From assembly GCA_003154375.1 (NCBI GenBank), contig PMDG01000028.1, positions 55,313 to 109,306 of the forward strand: a stretch of 53,994 nucleotides of DNA, read 5' to 3'. The notes under the pieces are model-generated. The model was given only the letters and a program-made list of their open reading frames with translations, made no database searches and was not told where the DNA came from. This stretch comes from Candidatus Peregrinibacteria bacterium. Its GTDB lineage: Bacteria > Patescibacteriota > Gracilibacteria > UM-FILTER-43-11. A program made the position numbers and the translations under genes. Positions 1-36,543 of this stretch are shown piece after piece (the first letter of the stretch is position 1; each line of letters starts with the position of its first letter).

Positions 1-664
<664 letters not shown>

Positions 665-665
<1 letters not shown>

Positions 666-727: not shown

Positions 728-1375
728 TCATAATTTTGAATTCATATTTTTTTGGATCCGATCCGCCTTGCGGGCGGGGTTCAGAACCATATCATCAGGG
801 CTCTGCAACGCTTCGTCGATAAGTGGTTTTGCCAAATCCGGGTATCCGGCCGCAAGGGCCTCCAAGGCTTGGGCGCCTTGAATCTGGACGCTGGTTTCGG
901 GGTTGGCCAAGGCCTCTTCGATGAGTGGAAGAGCGACCAGCGGGTCGGTTTCGGCCAAGGTCGGAAGGCTTAGGGCCGAATCGGTGTTCGAAAAATTGTC
1001 GGTGATTCGGAGTGCGTTTTGAAGAATGGGCGCTGCGGTCTTGGGGGAAAGCTCCGCGAGACGTCTCAGCTCGGTGACCTTCTCCATGCTTTTGGGGTCT
1101 CCGATCTCGCCTCGAAAGAGGGAAATGAATAAGGCATTCCCATCATCGGGCAGGGCCAAAGTGAGAGGAACGAGCGAACGGCACGCCGCTCGGCAGATCA
1201 GTTTGTCCTGCGTCCCGAGAGCCATTCGAATGAGGGGCGCGGCTAAAACAGGATCGAGCACGGCCAAGGGGGTTAGATCATCCGCTGCTGACAACTGTTC
1301 TTGGTAGTCGTGGCTGCTGAGTCCGATTTTGGTTTGGATGGCCAAAGTTTGGGCTGAGGGTTTGTTTTGAGCCAT
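728..1375 (-). CDS. HEAT-repeat-like helical protein
   Basis: A 215-residue soluble protein built of repeated helical pairs with the pattern 'DPxxAxPLIxxAL' (DPVLAAPLIRMAL, DPLVALPLIEEAL, YPDLAKPLIDEAL, TAAPILQNAL). This spacing, with Ala/Leu-rich helices each carrying a Pro-Leu-Ile turn, is typical of HEAT/Armadillo-type scaffolds that bind other proteins. There is no signal peptide, membrane segment or catalytic motif. The ATG start at 1375 sits about 20 nt from the predicted transcription start of a consensus promoter, with no visible Shine-Dalgarno. The specific partner or process is unknown. It stands alone on this strand and converges on eno. Confidence 0.7.
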   Translation of the reverse strand: MAQNKPSAQTLAIQTKIGLSSHDYQEQLSAADDLTPLAVLDPVLAAPLIRMALGTQDKLICRAACRSLVPLTLALPDDGNALFISLFRGEIGDPKSMEKVTELRRLAELSPKTAAPILQNALRITDNFSNTDSALSLPTLAETDPLVALPLIEEALANPETSVQIQGAQALEALAAGYPDLAKPLIDEALQSPDDMVLNPARKADRIQKNMNSKL

Positions 1376-1401: not shown

Positions 1402-1430
1402 ATTATACACTAATACTAATAGTTTGTCAA
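1402..1430 (-). promoter_or_regulatory. sigma70-type promoter of the HEAT-like gene
   Basis: On the minus strand TTGACA (1425-1430) and TATAAT (1402-1407) are both perfect consensus and separated by 17 bases. The predicted transcription start is near 1395, leaving a leader of about 20 nt before the ATG at 1375. Confidence 0.8.
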
Positions 1431-3918: not shown

Positions 3919-5661
3919 ATGGATCGAACTGTTCTGAAAATCGCCGGTGAAAGCGGAATGGGTCTCCTGAGTGTTGGCAAGGTGGTGGCCAAGATCCTCA
4001 AGGATATGGGCTTCTATGTCCATACCGACCGTGAGTTCCCTTCGCTCATCAAGGGCGGCTATTCCAACATGCAGATCGATTTCGGCCTTAAGCCGATTCG
4101 CAGCCTTTCCTTGCATGCCAACCTGGTCATCGCCTTGGATCGTGAGGGGTTGGTGCAATATGTGGATACGGTGGCGGAAGGGGGCGTGATCGTGCATGGC
4201 TATGAACGTCACGAAAAGATCGCCGGACTTCAGGAGAAGGCAAAGCAACGAAAAGTGACATTGCTTTATCTGCCCGCTCACTCCATCGCCCATTCGTTGG
4301 GAGGCGGTGATCTGATGGTCAACATGGTGCTATTGGGCCTGCTGTGGCGGGTGATGGGATTCCCGCTGAAGCCGCTCGAGGATGCCGTCCGCGAGCAGTT
4401 CGCCAAGAAGCCTGCGTTACTCGAGATTGATTTGAAATGCGTGCGCGCGGGGAATGAGGCGAAAGGGCTGGGGAAGATCCCCGAGTACAAAATTCAGTTA
4501 CCAAAATCAAAACCCAAGGAAATCCTGATCGATGGCAACATGGGCATCGCCTTGGGGGCGATCAAGGCAGGCGTGCGGGCCTATTACGCTTATCCGATGA
4601 GTCCCGCCAGTTCCATTTTGACCCATCTCGCCAATTTTTCTCATGACACAGGGATGCTCATCAAGCAGGCCGAGGATGAGATCACCGCGGCCCAGATGGC
4701 GCTTGGTTCCATGTTCATGGGAACCCGTTCGTTCACCGCCACCTCTGGGGGCGGGTTCGACTTGATGACCGAGACGGTGTCGGTCGCGGGGATTATGGAA
4801 AACCCGCTGGTTATTGTGCTCGCCCAGCGCCCGGGGCCTGGCACGGGTTTGCCCACGTGGACCGCGCAGGGGGATTTGAAGATGGCCATCCACAGCTCGC
4901 ACGGCGAATTCACAAAGATCGTGCTTGCGGCCAGCGATCCGCTCTCGGCCTACGAGCTGATCCAGCATGCCTTCAATCTTGCCGAGCAGTTCCAGACCCC
5001 CGTCATTCTCCTCACCGAGAAGGCGGTTGGCGAGGCCCAGATGATGGTGGATTTGGACAAGGCGAAAAAAATTCCGATCGAACGTGGGCTAGTCACCTCC
5101 AAAAAGGAGTTGGCCGCATTGAAATCCTCAGACCGTTTCAAAATCACGGAAAACGGAATTTCCAAGCGATGGCTCCCAGGCTCCTCGGCCACAGGCTACT
5201 ATGGCAACGGCGACGAGCATCGGGAGGACGGCACGCTCACCGAGGAGGGGCCGGAAATCGCGGCAATCATGGCCAAGCGGTGGCGCAAGCTGAAAACCAT
5301 CCAAAAGGCCTTGCCGGATCCCGTCGTCTACGGGCCAAAGAAGGCGGACATCTCCTTTGTGGGATGGGGCAGTTCCAAGAACGCGGTGCTGGATGCCATG
5401 GAGGTGTTGGCCGATCGGAAGGTCAAGGTGAATTACCTCCACTATGAAGTCCTATGGCCCCTCCGGGACGAGGCCTTCAAAAAGTTCGCCAAGGAGAATC
5501 CAAACTTCCATATCATCGAGGGGAACCTGCAGGGCCAGCTCGCGGATATTCTGGAGGGGCGCACAGGGCTCAAATTCAAGGGCCGCCTGCTCAAATTCGA
5601 CGGCCGTCCGTTTTTCAGGCGAGACGTGACCGATTACATTGGTAAAATTTTAAATTTTTAA
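3919..5661 (+). CDS. korA: 2-oxoacid:ferredoxin oxidoreductase, fused gamma-alpha subunit
   Basis: With KorB this subunit oxidatively decarboxylates a 2-oxoacid (2-oxoglutarate or pyruvate class) to the acyl-CoA and passes electrons to ferredoxin or flavodoxin. Residues 1-185 form the gamma domain (KIAGESGMGLLSVGKVVAKI, then DREFPSLIKGGYSNMQI). From about 195 comes the alpha part, with GNMGIALGAIKAGVRAYYAYP, the contact segment SGGGFDLMTETVSVAGIMEN and the C-terminal domain with VGWGSSKNAVLDAME. At 580 residues it matches the usual fused form. The substrate cannot be fixed from sequence. korB follows after 81 bases on the same strand, so co-transcription is likely. Confidence 0.93.
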   Translation: MDRTVLKIAGESGMGLLSVGKVVAKILKDMGFYVHTDREFPSLIKGGYSNMQIDFGLKPIRSLSLHANLVIALDREGLVQYVDTVAEGGVIVHGYERHEKIAGLQEKAKQRKVTLLYLPAHSIAHSLGGGDLMVNMVLLGLLWRVMGFPLKPLEDAVREQFAKKPALLEIDLKCVRAGNEAKGLGKIPEYKIQLPKSKPKEILIDGNMGIALGAIKAGVRAYYAYPMSPASSILTHLANFSHDTGMLIKQAEDEITAAQMALGSMFMGTRSFTATSGGGFDLMTETVSVAGIMENPLVIVLAQRPGPGTGLPTWTAQGDLKMAIHSSHGEFTKIVLAASDPLSAYELIQHAFNLAEQFQTPVILLTEKAVGEAQMMVDLDKAKKIPIERGLVTSKKELAALKSSDRFKITENGISKRWLPGSSATGYYGNGDEHREDGTLTEEGPEIAAIMAKRWRKLKTIQKALPDPVVYGPKKADISFVGWGSSKNAVLDAMEVLADRKVKVNYLHYEVLWPLRDEAFKKFAKENPNFHIIEGNLQGQLADILEGRTGLKFKGRLLKFDGRPFFRRDVTDYIGKILNF

Positions 5662-5712: not shown

Positions 5713-5739
5713 AAACTTAAAACTTAAAATTTAAAATTG
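5713..5739. repeat. heptad repeat abutting korB
   Basis: AAACTTA, AAACTTA, AAATTTA and AAATTG follow in a strict 7-base period and end 3 bases before the korB ATG. A partly complementary AT tract lies at about 5648-5690. Confidence 0.75.
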
Positions 5740-5742
5740 CCC

Positions 5743-6654
5743 ATGGGATCATTAAAGTCAAAAAACGACATCAAGCTCCTCGCCGACCGAAAGGACGAGT
5801 ATCTCAGGTTTGAGGGCAATGAGCGCCTCACGTGGTGCTCGGGTTGCGGAAATTTTGGGATCCAAAAAGCCTTGGAGCGCGCCTTGGTGCTGGAAGGGTT
5901 CAAGACCCCGGACGTGTTGCTTTGTTTCGACATCGGTTGCAATGGCAATGGTTCCGACAAAATCGCCGGAACTGGCGGAATCACCTTTCACGGCCTCCAT
6001 GGCCGTGTCATCAGCGCGGCCGCGGGCGCGGCCCTGGCCAATCCCCGCATCAAGGTTGTTGCGTCGGCGGGAGACGGCGCCACGTTTAGCGAGGGGCCAG
6101 GCCATTTGCTCCATGCGGTGCGCAGCAATTACCCGATGCTCTTCATCCTTCACAACAACGAGAATTTCGCGCTCACCACAGGCCAGGCCTCGGCCACCAC
6201 ACGCAAGGGTTTCCCCATGAATGGTTCGCCCGATGGCGTGGTCCTCGACCCCATCAACGCCTGCGATTTTGTGTTGGGCCTCAAGCCCAGTTTCGTGGCT
6301 CGATCGTTTTCTGGAGATGTGAACCACATGACCGACATTCTCCGCTCCGCGCTCCGCCACAACGGGTTTGCCTTTGTCGAAATGCTCCAGCTGTGCCCCA
6401 CGTACAACCGCGCCACCTCTTACGAATGGTTGAGCCAGAGGGTCCAATATCTAAAGACAACCCCCAAAACGATCGAGGCCGCCCGCAAGGCCGCCGCGGA
6501 CATGGAGGAAAAGATCAATGTGGGCATTCTTTACCAAAATGTTGAAAGCCCCAATTTCCTTGAGCGCCTTCCAAATCGGAAAGGCGTGAAGACCGCCTTG
6601 GTGGACGAGGTGAAGGCGTACGACATCAAAAAGCTGACCAGCCAATTTGAATAA
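5743..6654 (+). CDS. korB: 2-oxoacid:ferredoxin oxidoreductase, beta subunit
   Basis: The thiamine-diphosphate-binding subunit, working with KorA. ATG at 5743 is preferred over a TTG two codons upstream, giving 303 residues. The hallmark WCSGCGNFG lies near residue 28, FDIGCNGNGSDKI near 68, and the ThDP/Mg motif runs from AGDGATFSEG to NNENFALTTGQ near 110-145. As in most KorB proteins there is no separate ferredoxin domain with eight cysteines, so any further Fe-S cluster protein must be encoded elsewhere. The final 100 residues are helical and lineage-variable. It forms the promoter-distal gene of a flavodoxin-korA-korB group. Confidence 0.93.
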   Translation: MGSLKSKNDIKLLADRKDEYLRFEGNERLTWCSGCGNFGIQKALERALVLEGFKTPDVLLCFDIGCNGNGSDKIAGTGGITFHGLHGRVISAAAGAALANPRIKVVASAGDGATFSEGPGHLLHAVRSNYPMLFILHNNENFALTTGQASATTRKGFPMNGSPDGVVLDPINACDFVLGLKPSFVARSFSGDVNHMTDILRSALRHNGFAFVEMLQLCPTYNRATSYEWLSQRVQYLKTTPKTIEAARKAAADMEEKINVGILYQNVESPNFLERLPNRKGVKTALVDEVKAYDIKKLTSQFE

Positions 6655-6704: not shown

Positions 6705-6733
6705 TTGACAAAAGAATAAAAGTAATATAATAT
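6705..6733 (+). promoter_or_regulatory. strong promoter of the coiled-coil block
   Basis: TTGACA (6705-6710) is followed by overlapping TATAAT/TAATAT at 6726-6733, with spacing 15 or 17. Its spacer is AT-only apart from one G. The predicted leader is about 22 nt with no Shine-Dalgarno. Confidence 0.8.
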
Positions 6734-6759: not shown

Positions 6760-7296
6760 ATGTCAGAAAAATCCTTAGAGCAAAAGGCTCCGCTGGGAGT
6801 TAGGCTGAGAGACTATCTTGATAGGTTATTTAAGTTAAAACCCGAACCCGAAGAGGAGTTGGGGCGTGTGGAAGAGCTGTTTGAGTCGGTGAAACACGAC
6901 ATTAATGACCTCGAGCAGGGGCATAGGGAAGCTGTCGCTATGCATAGCGCAATGATAAAAGTGCATGATAGGCACGTTGGTGAATTAGATAATGGGGAAA
7001 AGGCTGCCTTTGAAGTGCGGCTCGCTGAAGTCAAGCTGATGGTTGAGCAGAGAGGCGAGGCATTGAGGCTTAGGCTGGAAGAGCTTGAAAGTCTTAAGGC
7101 TATGCATCTAAGGATTTTGAAAATTATTAAAGCCAGGAAACGTAATGAAATACATGATGTAATGCTTGGGTCGCTAGTGCAAACGATAGGGGGAAAGGCT
7201 TATCCGAAAATTCGTACGGAAGGCATCCTTAGTCGTGTGGAAAAACTTGAGAAAGAAAATGGGATGCAGGAAGTCGACGAATCGAAAAAGGGATAA
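6760..7296 (+). CDS. coiled-coil family protein, copy 1
   Basis: A 178-residue, very charged, helical protein without signal peptide or membrane segment. It shares with the proteins at 7332 and 9999 the N-terminal signature 'MSE...LG(V/A)RLR-YLDRL' and, in the C-terminal half, 'LK(A/S)M..RIL' followed by 'GIL..VEKLEKENG'. Heptad-like Leu/Glu/Lys patterns between residues 25 and 120 predict a coiled coil. Its start context TTCATATGTCAGAAAA is almost identical to that of the next gene, which suggests tandem duplication including the leader. Function is unknown; it lies upstream of a membrane protein and a kinase in the same block. I do not recognise a named family. Confidence 0.7.
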   Translation: MSEKSLEQKAPLGVRLRDYLDRLFKLKPEPEEELGRVEELFESVKHDINDLEQGHREAVAMHSAMIKVHDRHVGELDNGEKAAFEVRLAEVKLMVEQRGEALRLRLEELESLKAMHLRILKIIKARKRNEIHDVMLGSLVQTIGGKAYPKIRTEGILSRVEKLEKENGMQEVDESKKG

Positions 7297-7331
7297 TTTT
7301 AATAATATATAAAATCATTACATATTTTCAT

Positions 7332-7886
7332 ATGTCAGAAAAACTCGAAGCATCAAAGATTCTTTTGAAAGATAGGTTAAAGTACTATCTTGATCGGTTT
7401 CGAATGCCCAGGCTCAATGCGGAATTGGCACTCGTGGAACGCCGACTTTATGAGGTGAGAAATGCAATCAGGGAAATCACTTCTCAACATCAATCTAAAA
7501 ATATCAATAATTTGAGGAGCCAATTGAATAGTTTGAGAATTGAAATTCTCGGCGAGGATGTTAAGGATATCGAGGCCGACGATAAGCGAATTGATAAGAG
7601 ATATTCTGAGCACATAGAGGCACGGTTAGGGGCCTTGGTAATAGAGGAAGATAGCCTCAAGTCTATGCGTCAAAGGATTTTGGGGATTCTTGATGCTCAA
7701 GAGGCGAAAAAAGATGAAGAAGAAAAGACGGGGGCAAGGGCTCGTTCAAATGCTTGTGCGGATGGCGTCCTTCGCCATGTGGAACAGCTTGAACAAGAAA
7801 ATGGTTTGAAAAAGGCCAAAATTGCTGGAAATGAAAACGAACCGGTCATTAATATTGTGGGACAGAAGAAGGAATTGTTAAATTGA
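7332..7886 (+). CDS. coiled-coil family protein, copy 2
   Basis: A 184-residue paralog of the preceding gene, starting 35 bases after its stop. The N-terminus carries LKDRLKYYLDRFRMPRLNAE, whose second half (RMPRLNAELA) is shared with the third copy at 9999. The C-terminus has LKSMRQRILGILDAQ and GVLRHVEQLEQENGLKKA, closely matching copy 1. The middle is a predicted coiled coil rich in Glu, Lys and Arg. No catalytic motif, signal peptide or cysteine pair is present (one Cys only). It is probably co-transcribed with copy 1, while the next gene has its own promoter. Role unknown; cytosolic partner of the neighbouring membrane protein is a guess from the repeated gene order. Confidence 0.7.
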   Translation: MSEKLEASKILLKDRLKYYLDRFRMPRLNAELALVERRLYEVRNAIREITSQHQSKNINNLRSQLNSLRIEILGEDVKDIEADDKRIDKRYSEHIEARLGALVIEEDSLKSMRQRILGILDAQEAKKDEEEKTGARARSNACADGVLRHVEQLEQENGLKKAKIAGNENEPVINIVGQKKELLN

Positions 7887-7902
7887 GTCAGGATGCGATA
7901 GA

Positions 7903-7930
7903 TTGACAGATGATAAATATTATATATAAT
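7903..7930 (+). promoter_or_regulatory. strong promoter of the first membrane protein gene
   Basis: TTGACA (7903-7908), a 16-base AT-rich spacer and a perfect TATAAT (7925-7930). The ATG at 7959 is about 22 nt after the predicted transcription start, with no Shine-Dalgarno. Confidence 0.8.
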
Positions 7931-7958
7931 ATAATCTTTATCTCTTTTCGTAGTATCT

Positions 7959-8966
7959 ATGGAAAAACAGACCGTGCAATCAAACGAGAAGTCGGGCCGA
8001 TTCGGATCGCGAGGCGCGCTGATCGTTTTGCTGGCCGGTTTGGCCGGAGGTTTTGGCGCCGGTTATGGGGTGGGGAAAACGGGTGAAAAAGAGGGGCAAG
8101 GGGTCTCAGGCAAGATGGAACAGACTCAGGCTCCAAAGGTTATCGATTGCCCCAGGACAATTTCTCAGGTGGAAATCCAAAAAGTGGCGGATGCCGAGCA
8201 ATGCCGCGCACTGTTCGCGGAAATGACAAGGGATCCGAATTGGAAACCCATGCTTTCGGACGACGAGGTCAGGAAAAAATACAATGACATCGAGCAAAAG
8301 AGGCTCAGCGTCGTGGCAGACGGGATCATCTCTAAGCTTTGCATCACAAACCCAGATGACGAAAAGGCGATCAGGGAAATGACCTCGAAAGGGCTCGATT
8401 CAGGATTGAGAGTCCAGGTCGATAAAAAGGGGGGAGGGGCAACGGTGTCAATGACCAAAACAGCTGTAACCACGGATTACACAGATATGACTGTGGGTCT
8501 GGTCGAGGTGCCACATTGCGAATTGAGGCGCGACCCAAAAGAGGTTGAACATGATCAATTGTTTGAGGATATAATGGCCCGAAGGTACGACAAGATTTTA
8601 AATGGGGCTGTCAAAGCGGACGAGATTGAAAAGAACGCTGTCGACGATGGGTTGATTTCAGAAAGTTCGGTGCGAGACTTTATTTCGCTGGCTCGGGAAT
8701 CCGAAAGGGCTTTGACGGATCCTGCCACCATGAAGGAGCAATCATGCAAAATGATCACCCGGCTTACAGAGATTTTTTCTAGATGGCAATCCCTTGGCGC
8801 GGAACGAACCAGGGAAGTTGCCAGTAGTAGGGTGATTTTGAATTTCAATATGTTTTGGAGTGTCGCCTCGGATGCCTATGTTTCAAAAGGGGGGAAGGTG
8901 ACGGAATGCATGCCGGAATCATTGGGGGTCAAGCTGTTCCTTGGCAGGCCTACGCTACTACACTAG
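7959..8966 (+). CDS. glycine-rich single-pass membrane protein, module copy 1
   Basis: A 335-residue protein with a short cytosolic head, one membrane segment near residues 23-44 that is a Gly-zipper (GLAGGFGAGYGVG), and a large outer domain. The outer domain has five cysteines in contexts shared with the paralog at 10395: QCRALF, LCITNPDD, HCELRR, SCKMI and ECMPES. They may form disulfides or hold a cofactor. The outer domain is mostly helical and charged, with no motif I recognise. It is preceded by the coiled-coil genes and followed, after an inserted GC-rich gene, by a second coiled-coil plus membrane protein pair. Function unknown; topology N-in is inferred from the charge distribution. 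Confidence 0.7.
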   Translation: MEKQTVQSNEKSGRFGSRGALIVLLAGLAGGFGAGYGVGKTGEKEGQGVSGKMEQTQAPKVIDCPRTISQVEIQKVADAEQCRALFAEMTRDPNWKPMLSDDEVRKKYNDIEQKRLSVVADGIISKLCITNPDDEKAIREMTSKGLDSGLRVQVDKKGGGATVSMTKTAVTTDYTDMTVGLVEVPHCELRRDPKEVEHDQLFEDIMARRYDKILNGAVKADEIEKNAVDDGLISESSVRDFISLARESERALTDPATMKEQSCKMITRLTEIFSRWQSLGAERTREVASSRVILNFNMFWSVASDAYVSKGGKVTECMPESLGVKLFLGRPTLLH

Positions 8967-9093
8967 GCTGAGGGTCGGGCCGAACCAAGAAGCTTGTTTC
9001 GTTAATCCGACATTGAATGACCGAAGGGCACATGACAGGCAAGATCCCAAGCGGAATATCATGAATTCAGATCAGTTTTCGTCTAGGATTTTA

Positions 9094-9258
9094 TTGACGA
9101 AAAATTTTTAATATTTTAAAGTATCTTTCTAAAAAAATTTCCAAAGGAAATGCTCTCTAAAATCATCGGTTTGAATGTTGAAAGGGTAGGGTTTTTTCAT
9201 TCGGCATGTCCAAAGCCAACATGGGGTTGCGCTAAGGCCTGCCTTTGATTGAGTAGAG
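9094..9258 (+). promoter_or_regulatory. promoter and long leader of the GC-rich secreted gene
   Basis: TTGACG (9094-9099), a 17-base spacer and TAAAGT (9117-9122) give a leader of about 135 nt, far longer than for the neighbours. It ends with CCTGCCTTTG-NN-TTGAGTAGA (9238-9258), a motif that recurs at 38060-38079 just before another GC-rich secreted gene. No Shine-Dalgarno is seen. The rest of the gene-free stretch from 8967 shows nothing recognisable. Confidence 0.55.
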
Positions 9259-9264
9259 GCGCTA

Positions 9265-9882
9265 ATGTTGCTTCGATTCGTGTTATTTCTCATGGCTTCG
9301 ATGTTGACTTCGACCGTGATCGCGGCCGAGCCGCCAGCCGGCAAGGGCTCGTCGATGGTCCAGGCCAAGGACGTCCAGGCCGCCGCCGGCGACAGGACCC
9401 TGTTGTACTTGGCCCCAGGCGAGAAGCCGGTCGACAAGGCCCCGTTTCCGATCATCCAGATCAGGGAGTTCCTCCCTACGGTCTGCGATGCGAAGATCCT
9501 GGGGGTCGATTATACCGTGATCGAAAATGCTCCTAGTTTCGGTCACCCAGATGACATGGAAGGGGCCATCATCCTAGATACTTGTAATGGCCAGCTGAAG
9601 AACGATCCAAAGCTCACGAAATTGTGCAAGGAGCTCCCGTCGGATCCCAAGTTCCAGGCATTTATCGCCAGACACTTCGAGGTCTGCACTTCGCAGGCCG
9701 CGATCGAGGCGGCCAATGCCTGGATGGCCAGCGAAGGCGGGAAGGTCAAGGTACTCTCTGTCCAGGCGGTGAAGCGGAAGGTGGCGAACAAGCGCCGCAA
9801 CGACCGCGAAGTGGAAGCCATCCTCGTCACCTACGAGGCTCCAGCCTCTCCGCCCTCCGTGGCGGAACCGAACAAGAAGTAG
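9265..9882 (+). CDS. GC-rich secreted protein of unknown function
   Basis: A 205-residue exported protein. Residues 1-20 are a signal peptide (MLLRFVLFLMASMLTSTVIA, then AEPP, a good signal-peptidase I site). The mature part has four cysteines (VCDAKIL, DTCNGQL, LCKELPS, EVCTSQ) that could form two disulfides, a Lys/Arg-rich segment near 170-182 and a Pro-rich tail. Codons end mostly in G or C, unlike the AT-leaning genes on either side, so it looks like an insertion that separates the two membrane-protein modules. It shares the 5' motif CCTGCCTTTG...TTGAGTAGA with the gene at 38083 but not its protein sequence. No family recognised. Confidence 0.65.
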   Translation: MLLRFVLFLMASMLTSTVIAAEPPAGKGSSMVQAKDVQAAAGDRTLLYLAPGEKPVDKAPFPIIQIREFLPTVCDAKILGVDYTVIENAPSFGHPDDMEGAIILDTCNGQLKNDPKLTKLCKELPSDPKFQAFIARHFEVCTSQAAIEAANAWMASEGGKVKVLSVQAVKRKVANKRRNDREVEAILVTYEAPASPPSVAEPNKK

Positions 9883-9904
9883 CGAGTAAGCGCGCTCAGT
9901 GGCT

Positions 9905-9928
9905 CCGCCGAGGTTTTTATCTCGGCGG
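9905..9928 (+). terminator. stem-loop after the GC-rich secreted gene
   Basis: A perfect 8-bp stem CCGCCGAG / CTCGGCGG with a GTTTTTAT-type loop lies 22 bases after the stop. No T run follows, so it may stabilise the transcript end rather than terminate. Confidence 0.5.
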
Positions 9929-9998
9929 GGCACACCATAAACCCTATCTATCCCTTTCAGCGTTCAAAACCGATTGATGTCTAAATCTGTAAATTTTC

Positions 9999-10394
9999 AT
10001 GTCCGAAAGACCTAAGGAACCAAAGGTCCCATTGGGAGCGAGGCTGAGGTACTATCTCGACCGATTGCGCATGCCTAGGCTCAACGCGGAGCTTGCGAAT
10101 GCGGATCGTTTGATCTCTTTGATGCGTAAAAAAATAACGGACCTCACGATCGAGTGGAAATGGGGTGCCGCCATGCAAAGCGGCCAGACAACGGCTCAAA
10201 TCAAAGGCCAACTGGAGGCTCTTTCGGATGAGCATGAAAGGCTCAAGTCAAGGCGTCAGGAGATTTTGGATATTCTCGAAGGGCGGTCGGAAGGAAATGA
10301 GAAGGCCGTCGTTCTCGCCTCAGGATGTGGGATGCCGAAGGGTGGAACGGGGTCGGATCAAAAGAAGACGGATGAGAAAACCTATTTGAATTAA
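9999..10394 (+). CDS. coiled-coil family protein, copy 3 (short)
   Basis: A 131-residue paralog of the proteins at 6760 and 7332. The N-terminus has VPLGARLRYYLDRLRMPRLN, nearly the signature of copy 2, and LKSRRQEILDILEG matches the 'LKSM.QRIL' block. The C-terminal 'GIL..VE.LE.ENG' block of the longer copies is missing and replaced by a Gly/Ser/Lys tail. Its TAA stop abuts the ATG of the next gene (TAAATG), so the two are translationally coupled. This strengthens the idea that the coiled-coil protein and the membrane protein form a functional pair. Function unknown. Confidence 0.7.
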   Translation: MSERPKEPKVPLGARLRYYLDRLRMPRLNAELANADRLISLMRKKITDLTIEWKWGAAMQSGQTTAQIKGQLEALSDEHERLKSRRQEILDILEGRSEGNEKAVVLASGCGMPKGGTGSDQKKTDEKTYLN

Positions 10395-11492
10395 ATGAAA
10401 AAATCTCGCCTTGAAATCTCGCTGGAGCCACCCAAACCCCCTAAGCGCATCGGATTGCGTGGGGCTTTGTTTTTGGCTTTGGCCTGCCTTTCCGGTGGAG
10501 CAGTCGCGGGTTACGAATCGGGCAAGAATCAGGCCGAGAAAGGGTCTGCCACGGTTTCAGCAATACTACCTGATGAAAATAGCGAGGAGGGTGATGGGGG
10601 GCGAAAGATCCGACGCAAAAGGAGTTTGATTTCTTCGGAAGAGTTCGACAAAGATCCGCTCGCCTATGTGGATGTGAGCCGATGCCGGGAATTGGTGCTG
10701 AGGTGGGACGGTCAGGTGATCAGTGAGGACGAAATCGTGGGCAAGGCAAGGGAGATTGAGATCTTGAGGGAGGAGGCCGAAAGGGAAGGCAGGGAAAGGG
10801 AGAAAGCCGCCAATGCCGATAAAATAATCGCGGATTTATGTTTAAAAAATCCAGCGGACATCGAGAAGGTCCGTAGAGCGGTTGATTCGGCAAGGGCAAG
10901 ATTGACTGAGATCATTTACAAAAAGGGCAAATGGTCTGTTAGGGTTCAGGATCCTAATATCGCGGAGATCGATGGATCCTCAATGGACTGGGGGCGCACC
11001 GATCTTGCCGAGGAACCCCCCTGCAAACCCAATGGCGTCCCTTTTAAATTCGATCAGGCCAAGGAGGAGGAAAGAAAAAGGATGCTGGATCTGATTGGTG
11101 AAAAGAACTATGGAAAAGCCATGGGTGGCATTGATTTCGATCGGTTCGGTCAAGAGGCGGCCCGTGAGAAGGTGGAAAAAGAGGTGGCCGAAACGGTAAG
11201 CGCATTCAAACGTTTTTCGGACTATCTGGACAACAGCGGTAACGGTGATCCAGTTGGCCGCAAGCAGGCGTTGTGCAAATTGGCAATCAATTTTTTTATC
11301 GCAGACAAGGCGATTGTGGATGGGGAAAGGTTGGTAACCATTCCAGCGGAGCAGTTACAGAGGATCAAGGGCAATCCAATCTTGTCTGGGGAATTGGATA
11401 AGATGTACGATTTGGTGATGGAAGTCATGGCAAAAGAGGGGGTCAAGGATGTCGAGGAGGAATGCATCATGGCGATGATTAAGGGCAAATAG
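10395..11492 (+). CDS. glycine-rich single-pass membrane protein, module copy 2
   Basis: A 365-residue paralog of the protein at 7959. After a basic, Pro-rich head comes one membrane segment (about residues 22-45) with the same start, LRGALFLALACLSGGAVAGY against SRGALIVLLAGLAGGFGAGY. The outer domain keeps five cysteines in matching order: SRCRELV, DLCLKNPAD, PPCKPNG, ALCKLAI and EECIMAM. A charged helical stretch with EREGREREKAANAD is inserted in the middle. It starts directly at the stop of copy 3 of the coiled-coil family, with no gap. A kinase gene on the same strand follows after 119 bases. Function unknown; a surface-exposed or periplasmic sensor or scaffold would fit. Confidence 0.7.
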   Translation: MKKSRLEISLEPPKPPKRIGLRGALFLALACLSGGAVAGYESGKNQAEKGSATVSAILPDENSEEGDGGRKIRRKRSLISSEEFDKDPLAYVDVSRCRELVLRWDGQVISEDEIVGKAREIEILREEAEREGREREKAANADKIIADLCLKNPADIEKVRRAVDSARARLTEIIYKKGKWSVRVQDPNIAEIDGSSMDWGRTDLAEEPPCKPNGVPFKFDQAKEEERKRMLDLIGEKNYGKAMGGIDFDRFGQEAAREKVEKEVAETVSAFKRFSDYLDNSGNGDPVGRKQALCKLAINFFIADKAIVDGERLVTIPAEQLQRIKGNPILSGELDKMYDLVMEVMAKEGVKDVEEECIMAMIKGK

Positions 11493-11494
11493 GG

Positions 11495-11535
11495 TTTTGC
11501 GCCTTCATGCTATTTTGCCATATTCGTGCGCAAAA
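11495..11535 (+). other. stem-loop between the membrane protein and kinase genes
   Basis: TTTTGCGC (11495-11502) pairs perfectly with GCGCAAAA (11528-11535) across 25 bases. The four A at its end are not a terminator T run. It lies just after the stop and may attenuate read-through into the kinase gene. Confidence 0.4.
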
Positions 11536-11611
11536 GGACGCTATCGGCAAATTAGGGTATTGGCTCTTCCTTTCAGAGTGAAAATAAGGTATAATAATAA
11601 GATTAATTATT

Positions 11612-13018
11612 GTGCCATTTTTGAAACACAAACACAAAAACAGCAGCGGGTTGGAGTTGTCCCTTTTCAAGGGGGTAGAGTCGGAGGAGTCGGATGGGTC
11701 TTGGCCGATTTCGATCGGGTCGGTGCCGACTGCGGACCAGCCAAGGAAAGAGCTTCTAAAAAAGGTTCAATATTTCTTTGGGCCTGCCGCGTTGACCCAG
11801 CTTGCGATGGAATTGGATGTTCCTCCGGAAAAACAGCAGGAGGTCCTCCGGCGCTATGCAAAAAATGCGGTTGTGGGGATTCTGGATCAGGTTAAATGCC
11901 CCGAGAGCACAGGAGTCTTGCTGAATCTCGATTATCCCAAATCGATGGGGGATTTTGTGAATCAAATTATTGAATTGGCGGAGCGCTTGGATTGGAGTTA
12001 TCTCGATTTCAATTTAGGGGAAGTGGAATTCGAGCAATTCCAGAATTTGGCCCAGCGCATACGAAAAGAGCTGGCCCAGTTGGTCGAAAAGGAGTTGGAT
12101 GAGCGTGGGTTGGAACGCAAGGCGGGGGTTTTGGGCCAAAAATATGGTGAAGGTGGTTTTGGAGAGGTGTTTTCCTGCCATGTGGGAAATGAAAATCTGG
12201 TTGCCAAGTTGATAAGGCCGTTCGACCAAGACGTAGATTTCGACCTGCCAAGTTATCACGAATATCCGGAACTGATCGAGGCCACGCGGAATTCGAAGTA
12301 CTTGGTCCATTACCACGGCACGTTGGATCTGGAAAAGGACGACGGGAAGACAGTCCATGTGGATTTTGGAGAGGAACTAAAAGGCTCAAAGACCCTGAAC
12401 GATTACCTTAATGAGGATCTTGGGGGATTCGAGGGAGTCAATCGCTATCGGAACCTGAATTTTTATCTGGAAAGGCTTTATCTGCCAGTCCTTAAGGGGG
12501 TCAGCGATCTGCATGGCAAGCAGTTGGTCCATGGAGACATCAAAGAGGGGAATGTGTTGATATTGCCAAACGAGGGTGATCCCGAGGTCAAGGTAGGGGA
12601 TTACGATTTTGTGCGTCGCTCGGGGTTCGTCCCGAAGGGAAATCGGGTCTTGGGGTCCCCTGGGACCATGAGTCCCGAGCAGGTCATGGCAACAAGGCAG
12701 ACCGAGAAAAGCGACATCTATTCGCTCGGCATGATGCTTTATTATGCCTTTGGGGGGTATATGGAGATTGGGCTGGAGGCGCAGATGAAACGGGCTCTCA
12801 GAGAGATGGACGTTTCGATGTTGGAATGCCCCAGGCAGTTGAAATCGTTGATCTCCCGTTGCCTGAGCCTTTCCCCTGAGGACCGGCCCACGATCGACGA
12901 GGTTATCCGCGAAATCGAGAAATTGATAAAGGATCCCTTGTTCGAGGCGGAGATCATGACGCATTTGCCAGAGGCGCAGGAGGGCGAAGAGTTGCCGGAG
13001 TACCAAGAGGCGGCCTAA
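11612..13018 (+). CDS. atypical Hanks-type Ser/Thr protein kinase
   Basis: A 468-residue protein. Residues 1-170 form a helical N-terminal region of unknown type. The kinase domain (about 175-435) has a Gly-rich loop YGEGGFGEVFSC, the ATP-anchoring Lys in LVAKLIRPF, the catalytic loop VHGDIKEGNVL (HGD in place of HRD, with Asp, Lys and Asn kept), a metal-binding DYD in place of DFG, the P+1/APE region GTMSPEQV, and the helix-F segment KSDIYSLGMMLYY. Catalytic residues are present, so activity is likely, but as a non-RD kinase it may not need activation-loop phosphorylation. There is no membrane segment or PASTA domain. The start is GTG, since no in-frame ATG precedes the conserved part. The upstream TATAAT at about 11591 may drive it. 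Confidence 0.88.
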   Translation: MPFLKHKHKNSSGLELSLFKGVESEESDGSWPISIGSVPTADQPRKELLKKVQYFFGPAALTQLAMELDVPPEKQQEVLRRYAKNAVVGILDQVKCPESTGVLLNLDYPKSMGDFVNQIIELAERLDWSYLDFNLGEVEFEQFQNLAQRIRKELAQLVEKELDERGLERKAGVLGQKYGEGGFGEVFSCHVGNENLVAKLIRPFDQDVDFDLPSYHEYPELIEATRNSKYLVHYHGTLDLEKDDGKTVHVDFGEELKGSKTLNDYLNEDLGGFEGVNRYRNLNFYLERLYLPVLKGVSDLHGKQLVHGDIKEGNVLILPNEGDPEVKVGDYDFVRRSGFVPKGNRVLGSPGTMSPEQVMATRQTEKSDIYSLGMMLYYAFGGYMEIGLEAQMKRALREMDVSMLECPRQLKSLISRCLSLSPEDRPTIDEVIREIEKLIKDPLFEAEIMTHLPEAQEGEELPEYQEAA

Positions 13019-13117: not shown

Positions 13118-15499
13118 ATGGCCGAGGTTTTGGAATTCTCGAAAATGACAGATGGGGAGGTGGAAAGTGCCCTCAAAAAGGTCCATATCGGCCTCACGGT
13201 TGCCGAAGCCCGGAAAGTCGAGTCGGTTTTGGGGCGCCCGCCAACAGTCACCGAGGCGGTGGTGTGGGGAACCATGTCTTCGGAGCATGTGTCCTACAAG
13301 AGCAGTAAAAATGTTCTGAAACAGCTTCCGACCGAGGCGCCCAATGTCATTCTGGGGCCGGGCGAGGATGCCGGGATCGTCGAGATCGCTCGAGAGGGGA
13401 AGGTCCGATGGGGCTTGGCGGTTTCGCACGAAAGCCACAATCATCCGCTCCCCGTGGTTCCGTTCGAGAACGCGGAGGCGGGTTTGGCAGGTGGGATGCG
13501 CGATGTGCTCTGCATGGGGGCGAAGACAGTGGCGAACTTGGAGTTATTGCGCTTTGGGGATATAAGGAAGAATGAATGCCGAATCATGGCCGAGGAGACG
13601 ATTCGCGGCATCGCGCATGGCGGGGCTTCGCTGGGCATCCCGAATGTGGGGGGCGATCTTGGGTTCGATGATTCATTCAATGGGGGCGGTCTGTTCAACA
13701 TCCTCAGCGCGGGCGTGGTGCGGGAGGATCGGATCATCCACTCGTTTGTTCCGGATAAAGGCGCGGGTTACGATCTGATCCTTGTCGGAAAGCCCACGGG
13801 CTTCAGTGGCATGGGGGGCACGATGTTCGCCAGCGTTGAGCGGGACGAAGGGGAATCCGCCAAAAGTGCCGTGCTCGAGCCTGCCCCGCTTTTGATGCGT
13901 CATTTGATGGCTTCCACCGAAAGTCTGTTCGGGGTTCTTTTAAAGGCCAAAAAAATCGGTCAGATCGCCTTGAAAGACCTGGGCGCTGGCGGAATCATGG
14001 GGACGGTGCTCGAGATGCTCGCCAAGGGGGGTCTTGGGGTCGAGATCGATCTGGACTCGGTTCCGGTTTCGGCAGGGAATTTGCACGCCAGCGTCATTGC
14101 TTGCGCCGAAACGCAGGAGCGGCTTTTGTGGGTGGTCCCCAAGGCCGTGACATCGGTGATTCTGGACCATTACAATCGAGCTTGGGAATTGGGTTCCGTT
14201 GCAGATGGCGCTAAGGCGGCCGTGATCGGAAAAATCGTCAAAGGCGGCAATGCCACGCTTTTTCACAAGGGTCAGAAGGTTTTTGACGCGAGGGTTTCCG
14301 ATATCCTGGCGGTTCCTGATAAAGACTGGCCGATCCAGCTCAAAAAACTCAAAATCGAGGAGCCAAGCCCTTACGAAATCGAGTCGAAACTGCCATCAAA
14401 AGGCGATGGTGGTATGAATAAATTATTTGTTCAACTTTTAAGTTCAATTAATTTGGCTTCGCGTCGATCTGTTTTGAGTCGATTCGACAGCCATGTCCAG
14501 GGAAACACGATACTTTCGATTGGGGAGGCGGATGCCGGGGTGATAGCCCCCTTTCTGGGGGGCAAGGGGGTCGGCCCGAACATTCGAAGCTTGGGGGTAG
14601 CCTTGAAGCTGGACGGGCTTTCCCGCTATTCCAAGATCTCCCCTTATTGGCAGGCGGCGGACTCGGTGGTCGAGGCCATGCGCAACGTGGCGGCAGTGGG
14701 CGCACGACCGGTGGCCATCACCGATTGCCTGAATTTCGGAAATCCTGAAAGGCCGGAAATCATGGCCAAGATCGTGGAATCCGTGTTGGGGATCGCGGAT
14801 GCGTGCAAAGGGATTCCGCTTCGGGGCGATCCAAAAATCCCCACTCCCGTTATCGGCGGGAATGTGAGTTTCCACAATGCGGGGGATTCCATGGCGTCTA
14901 TCGGTTGCGTGGGGGTGATGGCGGATTATTCCAAGGCAATAACACTGCGACTCAAAGAGTCGGGGAATGTTATATATTTATTGGGTGAGCGAAAAAATGA
15001 GTTGGGCGGGAGCACTTTTTACCGCCATTTGGGGATTGTGGGGGCCAATGTCCCCAAGGCCGATTTTGAAGAGGCGAGTCGGCAGATCGGTACCGTGGTC
15101 GAGGCGATCGACCAGGGGCTTCCCCGTTCCGCCCACGACATTTCCGAAGGGGGCCTGCTCACGGCATTGGCAGAGATGGCCATGCCAAGCGAGCGAATGG
15201 GGGGCGGAAATCTGGGGATCAAGGTCGACATCGAAAAGTCCGGCCCGAGATCCCTTCTTCCTTACCAGAAGGCGTTTTCGGAAACAGGGGGATTTTTGGT
15301 CGAGGTCCGCCCTGCAGACGAGCAAAAATTCTTGAGGCTGTGCGGAAAGTTCCGTTTAGATCCGATCATCCTCGGCAAAGTCACACAAGACCCCACCTTC
15401 GAGGTATCGCATGGCAAAGAGCTGTTCGTGGTCCAGTTTTTGGATGAGCTCAAAAGGGCCTGGGGCAGGGGATTGGCCAAAGGCATGGGTTTGGAGTAA
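13118..15499 (+). CDS. purL: phosphoribosylformylglycinamidine synthase subunit PurL
   Basis: PurL makes formylglycinamidine ribonucleotide from FGAR, ATP and ammonia in purine synthesis, as part of a PurLQS complex. The 793-residue length fits the small, separate-subunit type. Visible motifs are the catalytic-His segment SHESHNHPLPVVPFENAEAG, the ATP site region GGMRDVLCMGA, GGASLGIPNVGGD, and the second AIRS-like half with NLASRRSV, DCLNFGNPE, VIGGNVSFHN and SAHDISEGGLL. purS and purQ are not in the window, so the amidotransferase subunits must lie elsewhere. A short AT-rich palindrome sits in the linker between the two halves (14414-14434). The presence of purL suggests fuller purine synthesis than in most CPR genomes. 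Confidence 0.96.
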   Translation: MAEVLEFSKMTDGEVESALKKVHIGLTVAEARKVESVLGRPPTVTEAVVWGTMSSEHVSYKSSKNVLKQLPTEAPNVILGPGEDAGIVEIAREGKVRWGLAVSHESHNHPLPVVPFENAEAGLAGGMRDVLCMGAKTVANLELLRFGDIRKNECRIMAEETIRGIAHGGASLGIPNVGGDLGFDDSFNGGGLFNILSAGVVREDRIIHSFVPDKGAGYDLILVGKPTGFSGMGGTMFASVERDEGESAKSAVLEPAPLLMRHLMASTESLFGVLLKAKKIGQIALKDLGAGGIMGTVLEMLAKGGLGVEIDLDSVPVSAGNLHASVIACAETQERLLWVVPKAVTSVILDHYNRAWELGSVADGAKAAVIGKIVKGGNATLFHKGQKVFDARVSDILAVPDKDWPIQLKKLKIEEPSPYEIESKLPSKGDGGMNKLFVQLLSSINLASRRSVLSRFDSHVQGNTILSIGEADAGVIAPFLGGKGVGPNIRSLGVALKLDGLSRYSKISPYWQAADSVVEAMRNVAAVGARPVAITDCLNFGNPERPEIMAKIVESVLGIADACKGIPLRGDPKIPTPVIGGNVSFHNAGDSMASIGCVGVMADYSKAITLRLKESGNVIYLLGERKNELGGSTFYRHLGIVGANVPKADFEEASRQIGTVVEAIDQGLPRSAHDISEGGLLTALAEMAMPSERMGGGNLGIKVDIEKSGPRSLLPYQKAFSETGGFLVEVRPADEQKFLRLCGKFRLDPIILGKVTQDPTFEVSHGKELFVVQFLDELKRAWGRGLAKGMGLE
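14414..14434. repeat. 8-5-8 palindrome, copy 1 (inside purL)
   Basis: ATGAATAA-ATTAT-TTGTTCAA, read in frame as Met-Asn-Lys-Leu-Phe-Val-Gln in the purL linker. It is a member of the eight-copy family described in the findings. Confidence 0.7.
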
Positions 15500-17710: not shown

Positions 17711-17787
17711 GAATAGTGGGCCGAATTGTTGTCTTTTCACATCCACTATGCGGTCCACAATTCGGTCCACGACTTGGCCCACTATTC
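17711..17787. repeat. 12-bp-period inverted repeat before holA
   Basis: The left arm has GAATAGTGGGCC and GAATTGTTGTCT. The right arm has three 12-base units, GGTCCACAATTC, GGTCCACGACTT and GGCCCACTATTC. The arms are complementary and can form a hairpin. The right end, CCACTATTCGAAA-N-CTATGG, runs into the holA start codon and is shared base for base with the right arm at 34764-34787 next to the DUF6941-like gene. Confidence 0.8.
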
Positions 17788-17794
17788 GAAATCT

Positions 17795-18856
17795 ATGGGA
17801 AATCTCTATTTATTCACCGGCGAAGAAACCTTCCTGCTCAGCCAGCAGATCCGTGCGTGGAAGGAGGGATTCCGAAAGCGTTTTGAGGGCGATTTGAATC
17901 TGGCGGTGCTGGATGGCTCCCAGGAGGATGAGGCCAGTCTCATTTCCCAAATGGAGACGATGCCTTTTTTAGCGGACAAGCGATTGATCTTTATCGAAAA
18001 TTTGCCCGAGGCGGCAAAGGCTTCTGCCAAGGATGCGGACGACAAGGATGAGGACGAAGAGAAAAAGGCGGATGCAAACCAAAAACTGATCGATTATCTT
18101 GAAAAGATCCCCGAAACCAGCGTGGTGATTTTTGTTCAGCCAAAGCCCGACAAACGGAAAAGATTGTACAAAAAAATTGTTCATCTCTCGACTGTCGCTC
18201 GAGATGACAAGGGTGGCATGGTCGCAGAGGTGAAAGAGTTTAATCCGCTAAAGCCGGCTGCGCTCAGCCAATGGATCCAACAGCAAGCGGCGGCTTACAA
18301 GGCGGTCATCGATCCAAGATCTTCAGAGCATTTGGCGGGCTTGGTGGGCGAGAGCCTGTGGCGTCTGGACCAGGAGCTCCACAAGTTGGCCGCCTACACG
18401 GAAGGTAAACCTATCACTCCTGATGATATCGATAAATTGGTGATCCCTTCGCTGGAGGCCAATGTGTTTCACCTGACCGATGCCCTGGGCGCCAAGGATG
18501 CCCGAAAGGCGATCCAATGTTTGCACCAGTCCGTGGCCGCAGGAGAGAACCTGCGCCAAGTGTTTTACATGGTCGTCCGTCAGTTTCGCTTGCTTCTTTT
18601 GGTTTGCGCCTATCTTTCCAATTATCCGAACGCCACGGCGCAGAGTTTGGCGACCTCGCTCAAGATGCATCCCTTTGTGGCCCGCAACACCATGGGCCAA
18701 GCCAAGCGCTTCAAGATGGCTGAGCTCAAGGAGGCTTATCGGAAATTGTTGGATCTCGATCTTGCCATGAAGACCAGCAAGATCCAGACGACCACGGATA
18801 ACCAGGACGAGCTGGCCATGGCCATCGAGCAATTCATTTTGGAATTCTGCCGATAA
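17795..18856 (+). CDS. holA: DNA polymerase III delta subunit (clamp loader)
   Basis: HolA opens the sliding clamp as part of the clamp-loader complex. The ATG at 17795 gives 353 residues beginning MGNLYLFTGEETFLLSQQI, the normal delta start in which a degenerate P-loop is followed by a helix; upstream in-frame codons lie in repeat DNA. Supporting blocks are VLDGSQEDEASLISQMETMP, KRLIFIENLP, an acidic insert near residues 70-90, FNPLKPAALSQWI, and the C-terminal collar helices with QVFYMVVRQFRLLLLVCAYL. The length fits the family (about 330-350). It is preceded by a 12-bp-period repeat that reaches its start codon. Confidence 0.92.
   Translation: MGNLYLFTGEETFLLSQQIRAWKEGFRKRFEGDLNLAVLDGSQEDEASLISQMETMPFLADKRLIFIENLPEAAKASAKDADDKDEDEEKKADANQKLIDYLEKIPETSVVIFVQPKPDKRKRLYKKIVHLSTVARDDKGGMVAEVKEFNPLKPAALSQWIQQQAAAYKAVIDPRSSEHLAGLVGESLWRLDQELHKLAAYTEGKPITPDDIDKLVIPSLEANVFHLTDALGAKDARKAIQCLHQSVAAGENLRQVFYMVVRQFRLLLLVCAYLSNYPNATAQSLATSLKMHPFVARNTMGQAKRFKMAELKEAYRKLLDLDLAMKTSKIQTTTDNQDELAMAIEQFILEFCR
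18164..18184. repeat. 8-5-8 palindrome, copy 4 (inside holA)
   Basis: TTGTACAA-AAAAA-TTGTTCAT, in frame as Leu-Tyr-Lys-Lys-Ile-Val-His. Confidence 0.6.
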
Positions 18857-19805: not shown

Positions 19806-21089
19806 TTAGAGGAAAGCCATTATCAAAGTCCCTAGCAGAATCACATAAGCCGCGAAAGGTCGCAGGGTGTGTTTTTTGAGGAACTTGAGCAAATAGTGGA
19901 TCGTTCCAATGCTGACCACGAAGGCGGTGATGAAACCGATCAAAGAAAAGCGGGGGTCAGGCCATGCCACGATCCCATGCCGAAGGTCATAGAGGGCGTA
20001 GGTGGTTGCGGCTAGCACTGCCACTCCACCCAAAAGAAATGAAAATTTGGCCGCCGCATCCCTCCGAATGCCCGTCAGAAGTCCAGCGCCTATGGTCATG
20101 CCCGAGCGGGAAAGGGAAGGCAAGATGGCCACTGCCTGTGCAAAGCCGATAATCAGCGATTTTTTGAGGTCTACGTGTTCCCCTTCGCTTTGGCCACTTT
20201 TCCACTCTGCAAAAAGGTAAAAGAAACCTCCGACGATAAAGAAAAGTCCGATGGCGAAGAAGCCTCGGCTCCAGTCGCCATCTAATGAGTCCTTCAGGAA
20301 TAACCCAGCCGCGATGGCGGGTAAGGTGCCTATAGCGAGCTTGAGGAAAAGCGTGTTTTTCCATCCTCCGTGTCGAATGGCATGGAATATTTCCGTGAAC
20401 ATCCCAATCCAGTCTCGCCAGAAATAGAGAAGGACGGCGAGGAGCGATCCTGTGTGCAGGAAAATGTCGAATGTCTGAAGGCTGTCGGCCGTGATGTGGG
20501 CAGGCATCTTCACAAAGTGTTCCACGAGCACAAGGTGTCCCGAGCTGGAGATCGGCAGGAATTCAGTGAGGCCTTGGACGACCCCAAGTAGGATGGCACT
20601 CATGTCTGTGGTGGCGTAGAAATGGCTCTTGAGAATCCAGCTGGCGAGCGAGCCAACCAAAAGGTAGCGGGGAAGACGTCCGCACATTACGGCGGTGATG
20701 AATTTTTTGTAAGGCATTTCGAAAATACCCGCGGACCACGTGATCAGCTTAAACGGAAACGGGGTGTAACCGATGAGCAAAACGCCCCAGAACCCCCATT
20801 TTTTGATGATGTGTTCCGCGCGTTCGAGTCGTTTTTGGCCGAAGAGCCATAGGAACACTGGGTGGCCGAGCCATTTGCCAAGGTAAAAGCCGATGGTCGC
20901 ACCCACGAATGTGGCAATGCCAACGGCGATGAAAATAAGATGTAGGGGCAGTCCGGCCGCCGAGCCCATGGTCATGTAGACCTCGGAGGGGATGGGCAAA
21001 ATGAACTGCTCAAAGGCGGTCAAAATGAAGATGCCAAGGACCCCGTGGGCTTGGATGATCTGCCTGGCGAATTCCATGAGGGCATGCAT
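19806..21089 (-). CDS. uppP: DedA-family protein fused to undecaprenyl-diphosphatase (UppP)
   Basis: A single uninterrupted frame of 427 residues (ATG at 21089; a TTG ten codons upstream is less likely). Residues 1-170 are a DedA/SNARE-associated domain: FILPIPSEVYMTMGSAAG, GATIGFYLGKWLG, then the amphipathic GRLPRYLLVG. From about residue 165 a complete UppP begins (MSAILLGVVQGLTEFLPISS, then SGHLVL) with the second signature SLSRSGMTIGAG. UppP removes a phosphate from undecaprenyl diphosphate outside the membrane; some DedA proteins (UptA) are reported to return undecaprenyl phosphate across it. The fusion therefore joins two successive steps of lipid-carrier recycling. Multiple membrane segments run throughout. 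A frameshift or assembly join is unlikely, because both domains are intact and in one frame. Confidence 0.92.
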   Translation of the reverse strand: MHALMEFARQIIQAHGVLGIFILTAFEQFILPIPSEVYMTMGSAAGLPLHLIFIAVGIATFVGATIGFYLGKWLGHPVFLWLFGQKRLERAEHIIKKWGFWGVLLIGYTPFPFKLITWSAGIFEMPYKKFITAVMCGRLPRYLLVGSLASWILKSHFYATTDMSAILLGVVQGLTEFLPISSSGHLVLVEHFVKMPAHITADSLQTFDIFLHTGSLLAVLLYFWRDWIGMFTEIFHAIRHGGWKNTLFLKLAIGTLPAIAAGLFLKDSLDGDWSRGFFAIGLFFIVGGFFYLFAEWKSGQSEGEHVDLKKSLIIGFAQAVAILPSLSRSGMTIGAGLLTGIRRDAAAKFSFLLGGVAVLAATTYALYDLRHGIVAWPDPRFSLIGFITAFVVSIGTIHYLLKFLKKHTLRPFAAYVILLGTLIMAFL

Positions 21090-21174
21090 GGGGGATTGGT
21101 TACTAGGATAGGGTAGCAAATTTGGGTACGATTGTCATTTTAGTTATCTTTTGTCATTTCCTCCTTTAACTGTC

Positions 21175-36087: not shown

Positions 36088-36543
36088 ATGGAGTCAACGA
36101 TGACGACGGAAGCGAAGACCTACAAGGCAGTCGTGAAGCCAGTCGCCGAGATGCTCTCGGCTGGGAAGTACGACCTAGCCAGCGAGTCGGTCACGGTCAA
36201 CATGCCAATCACGGACCTCGTGGTCGGCAAGGAGTTCGACGTCACGCTCGTCCCCTTCGGGCACGCGACGCTGAACGCCGAGGTCCTCGCGGAACTCGAT
36301 AAGCTCGGGCTCCGCGCGGCCGACCTGAAGGTGCTGGAGGCGCTCGTCGCCACCAACCCCGACCTCCTCTCCGAGGCGCCGATCGTGGCGCTCGGCACCA
36401 TCATGGTCGACTCCGCCGGCTGCAAGGTCTCTCCCCTGGTCCACAAGACCGCGGGCAAGCGCACCCTCAGCTCGGACTGGAACGACGAAGGCAACGAGTG
36501 GCTCGACACGAGCCTCTTCGCCGCCGTCCCCAAGGGCGACTAG
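36088..36543 (+). CDS. GC-rich 'AAVRK'-family protein, no signal peptide
   Basis: A 151-residue protein related to the C-terminal 130 residues of the secreted protein at 38083. Shared features are 'VTLV / VSLV', LAELDKLGLRAADLKVLEAL (against LVELDRMGLRASTLPELLAL), 'NPDL', 'ALGTIMV', then 'DW' and the ending 'LFAAVPKGD'. I recall proteins with this pattern (LGLRPA...ELLAF...PIVALGS...FLAVRK) as a much-expanded CPR family of unknown function. After the TAG stop the same frame continues His-Val-Arg-Lys-TGA, so the original family ending V-R-K-stop may have been cut off by a new stop. Codons are strongly G/C-ending, unlike the adjacent genes. Confidence 0.6.
   Translation: MESTMTTEAKTYKAVVKPVAEMLSAGKYDLASESVTVNMPITDLVVGKEFDVTLVPFGHATLNAEVLAELDKLGLRAADLKVLEALVATNPDLLSEAPIVALGTIMVDSAGCKVSPLVHKTAGKRTLSSDWNDEGNEWLDTSLFAAVPKGD

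Follow-up and report, generated by a model that had tools for sequence, protein, structure and literature searches.

A membrane-protein locus of conserved position and variable content between korB and purL in a family of Peregrinibacteria

Does a run of coiled-coil, membrane-protein and kinase genes in a Candidatus Peregrinibacteria genome encode one fixed signalling complex, or a locus whose content is free to change? We analysed a window of 53,994 nt (the whole stretch, positions 55,313 to 109,306 of contig PMDG01000028.1, assembly GCA_003154375.1) from a genome of 1.58 Mb that is 97% complete. By its korB gene, the closest named genomes are metagenome-derived ones of Candidatus Peregrinibacteria. 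The original prediction described a duplicated module of a coiled-coil gene and a five-cysteine membrane-protein gene, followed by an atypical kinase, and proposed that the three protein types could form a complex. The module fills the interval from korB (which ends at 6654) to purL (which starts at 13118), and the wider gene order is enolase, a lipoprotein-like gene (LP), flavodoxin, korA (3919-5661, +) and korB (5737-6654, +) for 2-oxoacid:ferredoxin oxidoreductase, the module, purL (13118-15499, +), a gene for an SLH-domain protein (to 17690) and holA (17726-18856). Our results suggest a variable cell-surface locus and not a single fixed signalling complex.

Some features around the module are noted in passing. 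Only the C-terminal half of the enolase lies inside the window, at its left edge (window 1-665; L008 14840-15978), and the gene is broken just upstream by an apparent short run of Ns (a gap or masked stretch). The gene at 19806-21119 (-) encodes a VTT (DedA-like) domain fused to a BacA undecaprenyl-pyrophosphate phosphatase domain, and homologs of this fusion are found near holA in several related loci. Two ORFs further away (52052-53599 and 36088-36543) have an odd composition (GC 0.39; GC3 0.93) and no Pfam match.

Three genes of the module encode coiled-coil (CC) proteins: CC1 (6760-7296, +; 178 aa), CC2 (7332-7886, +; 184 aa) and CC3 (9999-10394, +; 131 aa). Their proposed paralogy is borne out: the local-alignment scores exceed those of 2,000 out of 2,000 shuffles (z = 12-18), and because this holds for shuffles that keep the heptad phase, the likeness is not one of coiled-coil composition. 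The paralogs find each other by phmmer at E = 5e-7 to 3e-13, and an 82-nt DNA repeat shared by CC1 and CC2 (72% identity) agrees with homology. The signature given for all three (LG.RLR.YLDRL) holds strictly in two of the copies, but the copy at 7332 reads LKDRLKYYLDRF. CC1 has neither a membrane helix nor a signal peptide and is presumably cytoplasmic. CC2 is predicted to form a long hairpin of two helices (12-72 and 78-163), in which it resembles PspA/Vipp1 (ESCRT-III-like) proteins, and 6zvr and 8qbs are among the weak fold matches; however, the fold E is about 1, there is no Pfam match to the PspA/Vipp1 family and the N-terminus of the CC proteins shows no clear amphipathic helix for membrane binding (moment 0.08-0.26), and this assignment was dropped. 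CC has no credible profile match in Pfam, NCBIfam, PADLOC or PHROGs, and the phage search gave no CC relative.

The two membrane-protein (MP) genes, MP-A (7959-8966, +; 335 aa, with its helix at about 20-38) and MP-B (10395-11492, +; 365 aa), each encode a single-pass protein. They share 27% identity, with z = 18.5 for the full-length alignment and z = 9.9 for the ectodomain once the membrane helix is left out; their homology thus extends beyond the helix, and the five cysteines said to occur in the same order do align (C82, C128, C187, C263 and C317 of MP-A with C97, C149, C210, C294 and C357 of MP-B). Each protein has one unshared cysteine as well (C64 in MP-A; C31 in MP-B, within the helix). 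Both carry the features of the wider MP family, i.e., a single N-terminal helix, C4/C5-type cysteines and the eno/korAB-purL/SLH/holA position. The MP tree is mostly unresolved and does not separate a local MP-A/MP-B duplication from an earlier one.

All MP family members have one N-terminal hydrophobic helix, which follows a mostly basic tail, and by the positive-inside rule a basic tail faces the inside. From the membrane helix, the basic N-terminus and the cysteine pattern, we infer that the N-terminus lies inside and the remainder of the protein outside the membrane. When the family is aligned, eight members have two cysteines in the middle domain, in columns that shift from member to member (177/255, 195/227, 201/245, 195/255 and 177/254), and two members have none. 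The C4 column is a cysteine in all nine full-length members, and every one of them has one or more partner cysteines further C-terminal. Two intradomain disulfides would leave such a parity, and the extra membrane-near cysteine present in most members could link chains. The window genome encodes VKOR, an enzyme that acts in disulfide formation outside the cytoplasm; across genomes, the presence of VKOR does not follow that of MP genes. An AlphaFold2 model of MP (from four sequences) is of low confidence, with a mean pLDDT of 58 and a pTM of 0.38, fold searches with the MP and CC models gave nothing below E 0.67, and the best E of a PDB sequence search with the MP profile was 0.23. There was no credible match to MP in Pfam, NCBIfam, PHROG or PADLOC, no relative in viral contigs and phages, and no sorting, adhesion or ligand-binding domain was recognised.

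The description as a duplicated module stands for the CC and MP paralogs, but a 205-aa orphan ORF (9265-9882, +) sits between the two modules. It has a signal-peptide-like N-terminus, four cysteines and a GC3 (0.78) that exceeds that of its neighbours, and it gave zero matches in the 352 other genomes of the class and in plasmids and no credible hit to the profiles of Pfam, NCBIfam, PADLOC or PHROGs. A hairpin (CCGCCGAG...CTCGGCGG) lies near 9905-9930, 3' of this ORF. In the second module, the stop codon of CC3 abuts the start codon of MP-B as described (TAA followed directly by ATG, at 10392-10397), and the two genes are probably translated together in the window genome. Only this second pair looks coupled, because MP-A has a perfect promoter of its own.

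That promoter is one of three exact matches to the sigma-70 consensus (TTGACA-N15-18-TATAAT) in the window, where 0.02 were expected by shuffling. They are found at 6705-6731 (+; N15, 29 nt before CC1), at 7903-7930 (+; N16, 29 nt before MP-A) and at 1402-1430 (-), the third preceding a gene at 728-1375 (-). The latter gene encodes a 215-aa HEAT-repeat-like protein, and there is likewise a perfect promoter for its homolog in L078 (3416-4063). Across loci, 12/12 promoters precede 4 out of 10 MP genes as compared to 3 out of 198 others (Fisher p 9e-5), and promoters matching at least 11 of the 12 positions precede 6 out of 10 as compared to 9 out of 198 (p 9e-6); these p-values are optimistic since the pattern was noticed ahead of testing, and when the window genome is left out, the 12/12 test, for which the background count is then approximate, has p 3e-4. 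No such promoter is found before MP-B or the kinase gene. At several genes the -10 element ends 8-15 nt before the start codon (L006 11826-11861, L068 749-784 and window 11591-11612), which suggests leaderless or nearly leaderless transcripts. The last of these is the -10-like element of the kinase gene, which starts after a 120-nt gap from MP-B, so the kinase need not share the MP-B transcript.

The kinase gene (11612-13018, +; GTG start) encodes a Hanks-type Ser/Thr kinase with its domain at about 175-433, which matches Pkinase (PF00069) at E = 1e-23 (84.5 bits, gathering cut-off 31.7). A kinase with HGD and DYD motifs had been described downstream on the same strand, and this is confirmed; the label 'atypical' overstated the case, since the domain has the lysine, the catalytic aspartate, the asparagine and the Mg-binding aspartate (K199, D309, N314 and D330), all conserved with a relative in a second genus (G010) that reads HRD and DYD. 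Like Hanks-type kinases in general (PknB-like ones included), the window kinase has a glycine loop and these catalytic residues, but it has HGD instead of the HRD of the RD subgroup, DYD instead of DFG, and neither a membrane helix nor PASTA domains (59.5 bits against a cut-off of 450 for PknB-type PASTA kinases). It also differs in its N-terminal domain, which matches nothing in the libraries used and is found confidently elsewhere only in G010 (E 7e-11), with three further weak matches that are broken by stops. There was no kinase relative in viral contigs.

We searched 353 genomes of the class, 18 from the same GTDB family and 335 others, a set in which the order is represented by that one family. 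A family-profile search found MP in 8 out of 18 genomes of the family, with no convincing match in the 335 others (one weak match, in G211, covers 63 residues over the membrane helix at E 6e-4 and was treated as chance). MP is therefore dispensable, since 10 out of 18 family genomes have no detected MP. In all eight MP-bearing genomes, to the extent that the contigs cover the region, the gene has eno/LP/korAB upstream of it and purL/SLH/holA downstream. The order is korB, a 492-aa protein, a 388-aa membrane-anchored protein, MP and purL in G013; two MPs and purL in G016; korB, a 298-aa protein that is weakly similar to MP (hhalign E 3.5e-5) and MP in G005; LP, MP, purL and SLH in G017; and LP, MP and SLH in G009, where korAB is missing from this position. 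G011 and G015 have MP and then holA at contig starts.

Other genomes of the family have different contents at this position. No gene of at least 80 aa is found from korB to purL in G002 and G003 or from LP to purL in G004 and G006, proA-like genes adjoin purL in G007 and G012, and in L078, the named genome closest to the window by HolA (79%), the SLH gene directly follows korB, without purL. The gap in G010 contains the kinase relative together with an ORF of 157 aa and an MP-like membrane-anchor fragment of 88 aa; a truncated MP-like ORF of 99 aa is found in G016. The CC profile matches only the three copies of the window genome among the 353, and the kinase type is found confidently in only two (the window genome and G010), in the gap both times. 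Other gap genes are membrane-anchored too, two of them with enzyme-like motifs. The 492-aa protein of G013 (L006 9153-10631, same as L079 11006-12484) is membrane-anchored and has a transglutaminase-like Cys-His arrangement by eye (Pfam E only 0.23); its C-terminal stretch is MP-like, with a profile E of about 4e-3 when the genome was searched and an hhalign E of 0.002. The 388-aa protein (L006 10643-11809, same as L079 12496-13662) has a metallopeptidase-like HEIFGH motif; this protein and a 350-aa Cys-rich gap protein of G008 were considered as MP relatives and failed at the profile level.

The content of the gap changes even between members of one genus. G002 and G013 have flanks that are 88-94% identical (KorB 91%, PurL 94% and HolA 89%), and they share the purL promoter region (TTATTCCTCTATAATAATC), yet the three-gene island of G013 is absent between korB and this promoter in G002. 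The gap contents of G010 and G016, also of one genus, are entirely different (PurL 75%, HolA 73% and SLH 74% identical). Pairs of MPs share 20-37% identity, whereas pairs of flanking proteins mostly share 50-80%; for G009 and G017, for example, the values are 21% for MP, 66% for LP and 65% for SLH. The locus is thus hypervariable, with presence/absence and sequence variation well above those of its flanks.

Could these genes nevertheless encode a transmembrane signalling complex, in which the MP ectodomain would sense an outside cue, CC would bridge to the cytoplasmic kinase and the kinase would phosphorylate a downstream target? The coupling of CC3 to MP-B argues for this, as do the position of the kinase on the same strand with its key catalytic residues intact, the confinement of its type to this gap, and the kinase of the second genus, which has the same N-terminal domain and lies next to an MP-like anchor fragment. 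However, among the sampled relatives most MP-bearing genomes have no kinase match, the kinase-bearing G010 has no full MP, only the truncated gene, and in the window genome the kinase could be transcribed separately. Of the co-occurrence and conserved gene order originally proposed as a check, a single neighbourhood is kept for MP, but the three families do not form a unit; with CC in one genome and the kinase patchy, a fixed complex of CC, MP and kinase is not a conserved system, and we regard this reading as rather unlikely. An anti-phage or conflict locus, with the kinase as a toxic effector like MAD6, PD-T4-6 or Stk2 and MP/CC as sensors or antitoxins, would fit the quick turnover between congeners, and the window kinase does score against the PADLOC models of mad6 (8e-30) and PD-T4-6, with which it has a kinase core in common. 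These matches are limited to residues about 255-459, i.e., the generic kinase core; no partner has a credible PADLOC match, the other parts of either system are absent here, the gap contains no mobility gene, nuclease or phage-like protein, and there are MP-only versions without an effector, all of which make such a role very unlikely.

A serious alternative, if an unlikely one, is that these are lineage-restricted orphan genes under weak constraint and with no important function, in a gap between two transcription units that tolerates insertions. The four genomes with an empty gap (G002, G003, G004 and G006), the truncated MP-like ORFs and the lack of recognised domains would all be consistent with this, and the fast divergence of MP could equally reflect weak constraint. 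On the other hand, full-length MP frames are found in eight genomes (one of them cut by a contig end), and the kept cysteine parity, the conserved N-terminal helix and the strongly enriched consensus promoters argue for selection.

The explanation we favour, with about even chances of being right, is a strongly promoted and fast-diverging cell-surface-protein locus at a conserved position, to which CC and kinase genes are optional additions. Its core would be single-pass MPs with a short basic N-terminus inside, one small-residue-rich helix and about 300 residues outside, held by a disulfide in each of two domains, the middle and the C-terminal one. With near-perfect sigma-70 promoters driving the genes, the proteins are probably abundant; they would most likely lie on the outer face of the membrane, beneath or within the S-layer, and be involved in contacts made with hosts, neighbours or phages, and such contact would drive their divergence and their gain or loss. 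The CC proteins and the kinase would be lineage-specific cytoplasmic accessories, and the kinase may act on the short cytoplasmic tails of MPs or on the CC proteins. A bolder form, which we consider quite improbable, is a previously undescribed recognition system of Peregrinibacteria in which a fixed chromosomal slot holds strongly expressed, disulfide-stabilised surface receptors that diversify at the genus level and that in some lineages are wired through CC adaptors to a dedicated kinase, which would signal that a host or neighbour cell has been contacted.

Hypervariable membrane-protein loci are already known, and the Peregrinibacteria locus is a new lineage-specific variant (cf. VARTIG, PMC8416519). 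VARTIG of Thermococcales are lineage-specific archaeal islands of up to 25 genes around an extremely divergent membrane/secreted family that is found nowhere else and consists of large immunoglobulin-domain proteins (PMC8416519). Shared with them are the lineage-specific divergent membrane/secreted family, the variable small partners and the related fragments (PMC8416519), but here the protein is a single-pass one of 330-365 aa without Ig domains, and it occupies a single fixed gap within one family of Peregrinibacteria.

For new genomes, this gap (korB-purL, or LP to SLH/holA) gives a syntenic address at which to look for such genes. How Patescibacteria outside the cultured groups recognise their hosts or neighbours is little understood, and the fast-diverging MPs, with their strong promoters and paired cysteines, are candidate surface contact proteins in Peregrinibacteria.
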